Part shown: one piece after another, positions 1 through 45,668 of the stretch
Numbering within the stretch: the stretch's first letter is position 1
Layout: each line of letters starts with the position of its first letter
Position numbers and translations under genes: made by a program
Assembly (NCBI GenBank): GCA_003725585.1
Contig: RJMB01000013.1
Location: 1-64,000, forward strand
Direction of reading: 5' to 3'
Source: Halostreptopolyspora alba
GTDB lineage: Bacteria > Actinomycetota > Actinomycetes > Streptosporangiales > Streptosporangiaceae
Length of the DNA: 64,000 nt
Notes under the pieces: generated by a model
Seen by the model: only the letters and a program-made list of their open reading frames with translations
What the model was told of the DNA's origin: nothing
The model's database searches: none

Positions 1-291
1 AAACCAGCCGGCGCGATCGGAAGTATCCCCACCCTAACCCGACACCACCAGTGCTCAATCCATTATGGCGAGTCGGAAAGGGTGAGCCCCCGGAACTCGG
101 CGGGACGTATCCCGCTCGGCCTCCGGTGTCTTCTAGTTTACCGTACTTTTACGGCGCGTCAGACCACTCCCGGCGGTCACTCCGCGGCCTCGGCCCGGGC
201 TCGTTCCACCGTGTGCCCGGCCCCGGGGCCGGCGCCGGTACGGTACAGCGCCCGGAACCGGCGGGTTATTCCCACGACCCCTTGACCGGGG
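1..291. other. Gene-free edge of window with GC-rich palindromes
   Basis: No convincing gene is seen here; the open frames present have no family resemblance. It holds a perfect 16-bp palindrome at 217-232 (CCGGCCCCGGGGCCGG) and a 6-bp inverted repeat at 276-293 that overlaps the pcrA stop codon. Both could serve transcription termination of the leftward pcrA unit. Confidence 0.4.
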
Positions 292-9263: not shown

Positions 9264-9390
9264 GCGCGGCACTCTACAGACTCCGCGCCCGCCCGACTAG
9301 AACGGGGTTCGGGTGTCGCCGGCACACGTCGCGGTCGCGAGGCGGGCGGGGTGGGTCCGGGGCTCGCGTGGCCGTGTCGCACTGGTCTTC

Positions 9391-9451
9391 GTTGATCTTG
9401 TCGCTGTCGGCACGGAAATCGATTTCCATTATCGATGGCGACAAGATCAAC
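9391..9451. repeat. 61-nt palindromic element, copy 1
   Basis: Outer arms GTTGATCTTGTCGC (9391-9404) and GCGACAAGATCAAC (9438-9451) are perfectly complementary over 14 bp. A further 6 bp pair with G-U wobbles, and a nested 14-nt perfect palindrome GGAAATCGATTTCC sits in the centre (9414-9427). An element of identical length and layout occurs at 35824-35884 with compensating changes. This one lies in the divergent region between the SDR gene and the zinc-ribbon gene. Confidence 0.85.
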
Positions 9452-9505
9452 AAATCGTGCGCGGAGGTCAGCTCTCCCACGGTGGATGTGACGGTCATAG
9501 CTGAG

Positions 9506-35823: not shown

Positions 35824-35884
35824 GTCGATCTTGTCGCTATCGACGCGGAAATCGGTTTCCCGTCTCGATAGCGACAAGATCGAC
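35824..35884. repeat. 61-nt palindromic element, copy 2
   Basis: Same design as the element at 9391-9451. The outer arms GTCGATCTTGTCGC... and the reverse complement ...GCGACAAGATCGAC pair perfectly over 20 bp (35824-35843 with 35865-35884). The inner hairpin GGAAATCGGTTTCC (35847-35860) has a 5-bp stem and a TCGG tetraloop. Lies in the divergent region before the bactofilin/pentapeptide-like gene. Confidence 0.85.
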
Positions 35885-38648: not shown

Positions 38649-38685
38649 GGGTGGGCGGCGGTGTTGTCCACACCGCCGCCCACCC
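38649..38685 (-). terminator. Strong intrinsic-type terminator after the KamA-family gene
   Basis: A perfect 16-bp stem (GGGTGGGCGGCGGTGT, 38649-38664, with 38670-38685) with TGTCC loop, 15 bp downstream of the leftward gene's stop codon. Confidence 0.85.
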
Positions 38686-45059: not shown

Positions 45060-45668
45060 CTACCACGGCCACCACCATTCCGGATGGTCGTCACTGTCGT
45101 CGCCCTCCTCGTTCTCCCCGTCGTTGTCCCCATCGTCGTCGCTGTCATCCTCGGTGGGCGAGTCACTCGACGGGGGGCGGGGGTCGTACTCCTCGCCGCC
45201 TCTGTTGCCCCGGTCGTCCCTGTCGGGGTCCTCTCTGGAGGGGCGTTGGTCGCGGTCGTCCTCTCCCGAGCGCGGCGACCGGTCCTCGTTCTCGTCGCGG
45301 CCCTCGTCCTCGGCGGAGTCCGGCGCCGGTTCCTCACTCTCGGCCTCCGGCGCGGGGACCAGCTCCGGGCTCGGGGACGCGAGTCCCCCGTCCTCCTCGT
45401 CGGACGAGGAGGACGGGGGATTCGACGGGTCGGCACCGTCCTCGCTCGGTGACGGAGCGTCAGAGGTCACCGCGTTCGGGGCTGGTTCTGGCGGGTCGTC
45501 GGCTTCGACCCTGACCGGCTGGTCAACGAGCCACACCGCGGCGACGACCGCGGCGGCCAGCGTGCCGAAGCACAGGGCCGCGGTCGTGAGCAGTTTCCCT
45601 CGCTTCCTGCGGCGCTCCTCGCGCCGACGCGCGCTCCGTGAGCCTTCCACGGGTTCCTCACCGGTCAT
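45060..45668 (-). CDS. Single-pass membrane protein with very acidic tail
   Basis: 202 residues. The head is basic (RSARRREERRRKRGK), followed by one helix (LLTTAALCFGTLAAAVVAAVWLV) and an external tail dominated by Asp, Glu, Ser and Pro ending in an aromatic HPEWWWPW. No domain is recognised. Same layout as the gene at 43377, suggesting a small family of membrane-anchored low-complexity proteins. Function unknown; it sits after rbsK on the same strand with a 133-bp gap. Confidence 0.7.
   Translation of the reverse strand: MTGEEPVEGSRSARRREERRRKRGKLLTTAALCFGTLAAAVVAAVWLVDQPVRVEADDPPEPAPNAVTSDAPSPSEDGADPSNPPSSSSDEEDGGLASPSPELVPAPEAESEEPAPDSAEDEGRDENEDRSPRSGEDDRDQRPSREDPDRDDRGNRGGEEYDPRPPSSDSPTEDDSDDDGDNDGENEEGDDSDDHPEWWWPW

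Follow-up and report, generated by a model that had tools for sequence, protein, structure and literature searches.

The two palindromes found in this stretch of DNA belong to a dispersed family of repeats that we consider to be REP/REPIN-like non-autonomous mobile elements, probably served by an AbiEi-like/nuclease protein; we put the probability of this reading, in which mobility is inferred, at about 65%. The family consists of non-coding, intergenic palindromes of about 63 nt, of the form CGTTGATCTYG...CRAGATCAACG and variants of it. Copies would be mobile, spreading as a DNA hairpin on which a trans-acting enzyme works, and their arms would co-evolve with that enzyme. The best candidate for the enzyme is an AbiEi-like protein whose C-terminus is DUF559/MTES_1575-like and probably a nuclease, and whose gene lies between two palindromes in five genomes.

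The window, i.e., the whole 64 kb stretch that was analysed, is the first part of contig C5 of a genome of 5.26 Mb in 68 contigs (G000). It holds two 61-nt palindromes with a shared plan, at 9391-9451 and 35824-35884 (no strand assigned), and the positions, the length, the arms and the nested GGAAATCGRTTTCC core that the initial annotation had given for them were all correct. The distance from GATC to GATC is 55 nt in both (9394-9448 and 35827-35881), and these cores are flanked further by GTT/AAC or GTC/GAC. In copy 1, the left arm (GTTGATCTTGTCGCTGTCG, 9391-9409) and the right arm (CGATGGCGACAAGATCAAC, 9433-9451) enclose a nested palindromic core (GGAAATCGATTTCC, 9414-9427), while copy 2 has its left arm (GTCGATCTTGTCGCTATCGA) at 35824-35843, its nested core (GGAAATCGGTTTCC) at 35847-35860 and its right arm (TCGATAGCGACAAGATCGAC) at 35865-35884; both interiors are of class A. 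An inverted-repeat listing of the window ranked 35824-35884 first and also contained 9388-9454, and the core motif occurred four times on the two strands, with up to two mismatches, against 0.28 expected. Two G+C-rich inverted repeats unrelated to the palindrome family were also seen, a perfect one of 16 bp (38649-38685) and a near-perfect one of 22 bp (45380-45424). Approximately 63 nt at the start of the window (1-63, the start of contig C5) are common to the start of contig C9 (locus L363), so that the window begins inside another repeated sequence.

The initial annotation had counted two copies and had listed a miniature repeat family among its options. The count has to be revised upward, to 25 copies (pattern search) or 32 sites (covariance model) in the same genome, and the miniature-repeat option is supported by these 25 to 32 intergenic copies and by palindromes with other arms in related genomes. 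Exact 11-nt arms with a spacer free to vary from 20 to 45 nt were found at eight places, and the spacer was 33 nt in 8/8. A fixed-length pattern with three mismatches allowed, which sets the element length by design, gave 25 places, and its reversed control gave none. A covariance model built from these 25 copies (R1) returned 61 matches over both strands, corresponding to 32 distinct sites, i.e., the 25 pattern copies plus seven weaker ones. The interiors of the 25 copies were GGAAATCGATTTCC-like in 14, GTGTCACCGAGTGACC-like in eight and of other kinds in three. Being multi-copy, intergenic and palindromic with a constant layout (25 copies; equal length in 8/8), the repeats have the features of the REP/REPIN criterion. 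Their ends, CGTT and AACG, are paired on both sides, and they lack the one-sided, unpaired tag (GTAG or CGTC) of REP/REPIN elements. Flanks of about 12 nt are pyrimidine-rich to the left of the palindromes and purine-rich to the right.

The placement of the sites relative to genes bears on what the palindromes might do. With crude gene calls, and tolerating an overlap of up to 30 nt with a gene end, none of 59 sites in three genomes (G000, G030 and G169) lay inside a called gene. Both neighbours were called at 53 sites, again crudely, and these were convergent at 23, divergent at 11 and in tandem at 19. The divergent promoter setting that had been described for both window copies is therefore not typical of the family (11/53). 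Convergent neighbours occurred at roughly 23/53 palindrome sites against 24/127 of the remaining gaps at the same loci, the 127 having been obtained by subtraction rather than by counting. At locus L017, one palindrome supplies the TGA stop codons of both a galactokinase-like gene and the nuclease-like gene that faces it. The convergent preference, this shared stop-codon palindrome and the blank Rfam result all disfavour two other options of the initial annotation, a promoter-linked regulator site and a 5' RNA structure. Both options are further disfavoured by a comparison within one genus: for only three of 17 sites in G030 was there a counterpart with clearly homologous flanks among the 17 sites of G169 compared.

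The convergent excess (23/53 against roughly 24/127 in other gaps) could also point to transcribed RNA hairpins, e.g., two-way terminators or stability elements at gene ends, as could the RNA folds of both window copies, which on both strands lay 5.6 to 8.5 SD below dinucleotide shuffles. However, there is no U-run, the flanks being pyrimidine-rich before and purine-rich after the palindrome, and Rfam gave no match above its gathering score in the window, the two microRNA models listed around copy 1 scoring far under their cut-offs; with nothing in Rfam, a known structured RNA was rejected as an identity. RNA hairpins would also fail to explain the genome-wise arm families and the bracketing of one gene type described below, and we regard this explanation as highly improbable.

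Related palindromes were found beyond the source genome. When 200 genomes of the bacterial family were searched with the R1 model on both strands, scoring at most 25 candidates per genome, 19 gave matches and 13, in eight genera, had three or more. Six genomes with a single match were kept out of the 13: the matches in G180 and G212 were not GATC palindromes, and those in G071, G110, G135 and G194 were isolated hairpins, 42 to 78 nt long. The congener G001 gave no R1 match, and the strict pattern, run on a set of 60 genomes, had no match in the other 59. A pattern scan of named genomes hit seven contigs of other phyla, unrelated to the family, and is no proof of absence elsewhere, because it also missed G030-type copies that fit the pattern. 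Among the relatives' copies inspected, the sequence was CGTTGATCT[T/C]G...C[A/G]AGATCAACG or a close variant. Spacing from GATC to GATC was mostly 54-56 nt, with 80 nt predominating in G124 and found in the single G095 copy inspected. The arms were genome-specific (GTAGCTACCG in G030, GTACCTACCG in G169 and GGGGATATCGACCGAAT in G021).

Long palindromes with GTAG or GTGG ends (GTAGCGCCGGCGATCTTGTCGCCGG...) were seen on two Bryobacterales MAG contigs and one Ignavibacteriae MAG contig (L043 4489-4541, L045 1451-1503 and L048 2363-2415). Their sequences hardly differ between the two phyla, and they resemble REP dimers or may reflect misbinning. Pattern matches on viral contigs were rejected for poor pairing or as another sequence, and a plasmid search gave no match to the palindrome. 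The AbiEi-like protein likewise had no match in plasmids, phages or viral contigs, and a plasmid or phage origin was rejected on these results.

The differences between the two window copies had been read as coordinated changes that preserve pairing. Aligned by hand, the copies contain a single two-sided change, in which T-A at the outer end becomes C-G; at four other arm differences pairing is kept solely by G-T/G-U, and at three inner positions either copy 2 alone pairs or neither copy does. Among the 25 copies of the source genome, four pairs had a two-sided change, a number reached by 97/500 shuffles, and there were 14 two-sided cells, reached by 11/500. Paired cells amounted to 93.9% against 92.2% in shuffles (0/500), the score was 0.115 against 0.088 (0/500), and a stricter Watson-Crick test gave 136/5000. 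Covariation among these copies is weak. Column pair 17/55, for example, was C/G in nine copies, C/T in eight, A/T in six and otherwise composed in two. The arms change in concert at the level of the genome more than at that of the single copy.

Between genomes, the arms differ yet keep pairing. Alignment A3 consists of 29 hand-chosen rows from 12 genomes and excludes the rows with 80-nt spacing (G095 and most of G124). In it, 95.3% of cells paired against 76.8% in shuffles, two-sided changes affected 16 of 24 pairs, and two-sided cells numbered 119, where shuffles gave 34 and slid controls 8-29; the relatives' palindromes had been retrieved by a model that rewards pairing. Evidence independent of that model came from two orthologous sites of G030 and G169 (88% identity over 3.1 kb at the first) at which both species carry the palindrome; there the arms differ as GTAGCT and GTACCT, with bases changed on both sides. 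Selection on pairing, as the initial annotation had proposed, is supported across genomes and at these two orthologous sites, and weakly supported by the copies within the source genome.

At locus L017 of the source genome, two inverted copies 1.1 kb apart enclose a single gene, encoding a protein of 326 amino acids (P0001). P0001 matched the PADLOC AbiEi model (E 5e-20), and PADLOC AbiEi models matched 28/28 members of the homologue set A2; Pfam AbiEi_4 was found in 21/28, with P0001 under Pfam's cut-off. Searches of the PDB and NCBIfam gave no match. At the C-terminus, MTES_1575 was found in 2/28 of A2 (best E 3e-5), and residues D256, E267 and D269 are nearly invariant in the set. The homologues in G169 and G030 are bracketed too; one of the G169 palindromes stands some 0.85 kb away from the gene, on its upstream side. 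The proteins of these three genomes are 70-81% identical, and the genes beyond the bracketing palindromes show no homology among the three loci.

Two distant relatives are bracketed in the same manner, in G065 (L395, 312 amino acids) and G010 (L397, 301 amino acids). They are about 29% identical to P0001 and 53% identical to each other, match PADLOC AbiEi with E-values of 1.9e-12 and 7e-10, respectively, and have DUF559/MTES_1575-like C-termini; DUF559 was over the cut-off for the G010 protein only, and MTES_1575 was under it for both. These matches place the bracketed protein in the AbiEi family. DUF559 is a nuclease domain, and these weak profile matches make the C-terminus of the AbiEi-like protein a probable nuclease and a candidate for the PD-(D/E)XK-like group. 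The bracketing palindromes, CGCCGATCTTGACC...GGTCAAGATCGGCG with its partner in G065 and CGCCGATCTCGGGAGAA...CGAGATCGGCG twice in G010, follow the plan of the family, with arms that differ from those of the genome copies inspected (L080, L092 and L082).

Just downstream of the homologues in G215 and G156 (54-55% identity) stands a 63-nt palindrome whose core is similar and whose outer arms differ. A half-pattern of it was found at four places in G215 (two in near-identical surroundings) and one in G156, and ten further genomes gave no match; in these copies, 19-22 of 31 positions pair. The G021 homologue (L178) is accompanied by a 60-nt palindrome of other sequence, which was excluded from the count. 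At the homologue on G030:C2 (L387), a 69-nt direct repeat that is 81% identical and not palindromic stands on both sides of the gene (1309-1377 and 2418-2486), and a weaker, likewise non-palindromic direct repeat was seen at L181.

AbiEi proteins are known autoregulators that bind inverted repeats, and because the bracketed gene encodes an AbiEi-like protein, the palindromes may be linked to a DNA-binding protein. They could be operator sites of a dimeric AbiEi-like regulator, flanking its own gene for autoregulation, with the other copies forming a regulon; the symmetric arm changes, which a dimer site also predicts, would then reflect co-evolution with the dimer rather than pairing. The mode of AbiEi autoregulation fits this, as do the PADLOC AbiEi matches in 28/28 of A2 and in the G065 and G010 proteins and the position of the palindromes around the protein's own gene. 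However, the sites favour convergent over divergent neighbours (23/53 against 11/53), and the gene has a downstream as well as an upstream copy, with only a downstream one in G215 and G156. In addition, lengths of 54 to 80 nt far exceed the footprint of a dimer, and flanks are common to just 3/17 sites in the within-genus sample (G030 against G169). We consider operator sites unlikely.

How strong is the link between palindrome and gene? We examined 50 homologue loci, i.e., the 30 best per genome plus 20 more. Bracketing by two family palindromes was seen at five of them, in five genomes of four genera and in two subfamilies about 29% identical; two more had a related palindrome on one side only, and the remaining 43 had no such palindrome by these scans. 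Eight of the 13 palindrome-rich genomes had no bracketed gene among the loci examined. The 70% line that separates the first subfamily from the next homologue (63%, not bracketed) was set post hoc, and three of the five bracketed loci (G030, G065 and G010) were reached via the gene and not via the palindromes. The two copies that bracket a gene tend to resemble each other: the G000 pair was the third closest of 300 pairs, the G169 pair second of 136 and the G030 pair 28th of 136, and identity was 95% in G065 and 88% in G010. As a control, 1.2 Mb of G001 contained 122 palindromes and no similar pair 0.5-1.8 kb apart; the same scan flagged four of the five bracketed loci. A homologue (at least 40% identity over 200 residues) was present in 12/13 palindrome-rich genomes against 17/187 others (p ~1e-10, with a cut-off of our own choosing and with shared ancestry making the p value generous). 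The 13th palindrome-rich genome, G010, carries the bracketed distant relative. It is the bracketing in five genomes and two distant subfamilies that makes the AbiEi-like/nuclease protein the most likely partner of the palindromes.

Pairs of palindromes enclose other genes as well (named by eye): ImmA-like and PIN-like genes in G030, a short-chain dehydrogenase in G169 and a hydrolase in G129. The G030 genes lie between near-identical direct palindromes (L093 1661-3818), beside a DUF4429-like gene, and the same DUF4429-like gene adjoins the AbiEi-nuclease unit at L095 of G169, so that a single hotspot holds different contents in the two genomes. At L094 of G169 (1823-2571), a short membrane-protein-like reading frame lies between two palindromes that are 694 bp apart and identical, near flanks included.

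Such pairs raise the alternative that the palindromes are sites of recombination or gene capture, recombination between two of them adding or removing the single gene enclosed and leaving one palindrome as a scar. The other enclosed genes in G030, G169 and G129 speak for this, as does part of the synteny with G001, in which 1.2 of 6.9 Mb of G001 plus selected loci were covered and five sites (one of them weak) were anchored on both sides. At three (L025 3695, L027 3411 and L036 3723), G001 has about 1 kb and one gene more (by eye hydrolase-like, lytic transglycosylase-like and unknown) where G000 has only a palindrome, and at the weak site (C6:136797) G000 has about 1.4 kb more than G001. However, the fifth site (L029 3435) shows no gene-sized difference (450 against 538 bases), G001 has no R1 match, the comparison spans 1.2 of the 6.9 Mb, and the linked pair at L195 is dissimilar (rank 120/136). 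Opposite the gene bracketed at L017, G001 has about 30 kb of sequence, and the 41.6 kb of aligned G000/G001 sequence contained two further indels of 500 bases or more. We judge gene capture very unlikely as the explanation of the family.

An insertion-like element also adjoins some copies. Its end, TATTGGTTCATCCTGGAGAGG, occurs at five places in the readable contigs of G000, each directly after the GATC of a palindrome and each at a contig end, the contigs (L018, L019, L020, L023 and L026) ending 28-51 nt into the same element; the 51-nt end gave no identification in plasmids. The palindromes might be hairpin ends or favoured targets of an insertion element that is the true mover, with the AbiEi-nuclease gene as a passenger. 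The constant position of TATTGGTTCATCCTGGAGAGG would fit this, and three of the five adjoining palindromes differ by just 1-2 nt, against a median of 13. However, the remaining two belong to interior class A and are unlike those three; the junction lies 4 nt inside the symmetric end of the palindrome, and looks like insertion into an existing target; and 27 of the 32 sites have no such end alongside. We rate this reading as quite unlikely.

The reading we prefer remains that of REP/REPIN-like elements served by the AbiEi-like/nuclease protein, and the bracketing pairs suggest an undescribed kind of small mobile DNA. Against this reading, the loci compared yielded no empty site that was clean and exact at its ends, and the element adjoining five copies could itself be the mover or hold a Y1 transposase. 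We tentatively go further, at somewhat less than even odds, and propose that the REPIN/RAYT arrangement was invented independently a second time: hairpin repeats would be copied around actinobacterial chromosomes by a fusion of an AbiEi-type DNA-binding protein with a restriction-like nuclease, several subfamilies of the enzyme would each have their own arms, and the repeats would mark the gain or loss of single genes. A palindrome family paired with a different, testable gene would demonstrate that more than one kind of nuclease can serve hairpin repeats, and a partnership of this kind would give a function to actinobacterial AbiEi-like/nuclease fusions. In several genera it would also supply arms and enzymes that are naturally matched.

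A search of one literature library by combinations of terms found no description of this palindrome family, and several known systems can be compared with it. Integron attC sites were rejected because, judged by eye against the attC consensus, the conserved GTT/AAC ends face the opposite way. Like the MITEs of DDE transposons, the palindromes are small, non-autonomous, inverted-repeat elements. However, a search for target-site duplications of fixed length (2-8 nt at offsets of 0-8) in four genomes found none, with no direct repeats at the ends (best p values, before correction for many tests, 0.084 in G000, 0.026 in G030, 0.059 in G169 and 0.128 in G021), and DDE-type MITEs were rejected on this result. 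The insertion-like end that adjoins palindromes at 5/5 places resembles the ISPpu9-type elements inserted in REPs (PMC8450116).

In a paper on REPs (PMC3733652), GTAG REPs are tied to a single enzyme type, RAYT, and CGTC REPs are said to have no dedicated transposase; Actinobacteria, Streptomyces, Nocardiopsis and Thermobifida do not occur in its main text. CGTC-tagged REPs resemble our repeats as palindromic extragenic repeats with no RAYT partner, and some copies here begin with CGTC. There, however, the tag is unpaired, at one end of a unit of 20-40 bp, whereas here CGTT or CGTC pairs with AACG or GACG at both ends of a 63-nt unit (PMC3733652).

The closest comparison is with REPINs, REP doublets that form hairpins and are associated with RAYT (PMC3116915). 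RAYT genes sit between REPs. A RAYT profile (PF01797) had no match in the readable contigs of G000, and across the 200 genomes it matched 80, comprising 4/13 palindrome-rich genomes against 76/187 others; RAYT was rejected as the partner on both counts. With the RAYT and tag tests negative, we do not class the palindromes as REPs or REPINs, despite their REP/REPIN-like behaviour in the features tested. Set beside REPINs with RAYT (PMC3116915), the differences are that the palindromes carry no GTAG tag, that a RAYT/Y1 transposase is absent from readable G000, that the arms are, by eye, no clear REP hairpins themselves, and that there are about 32 copies. The likeness lies in an intergenic, dispersed distribution, inverted-repeat hairpins of constant layout, compensatory changes, arm sequences that vary by genome, and an enzyme-like gene flanked by copies, in this case a gene for an AbiEi-like protein whose C-terminus is nuclease-like.
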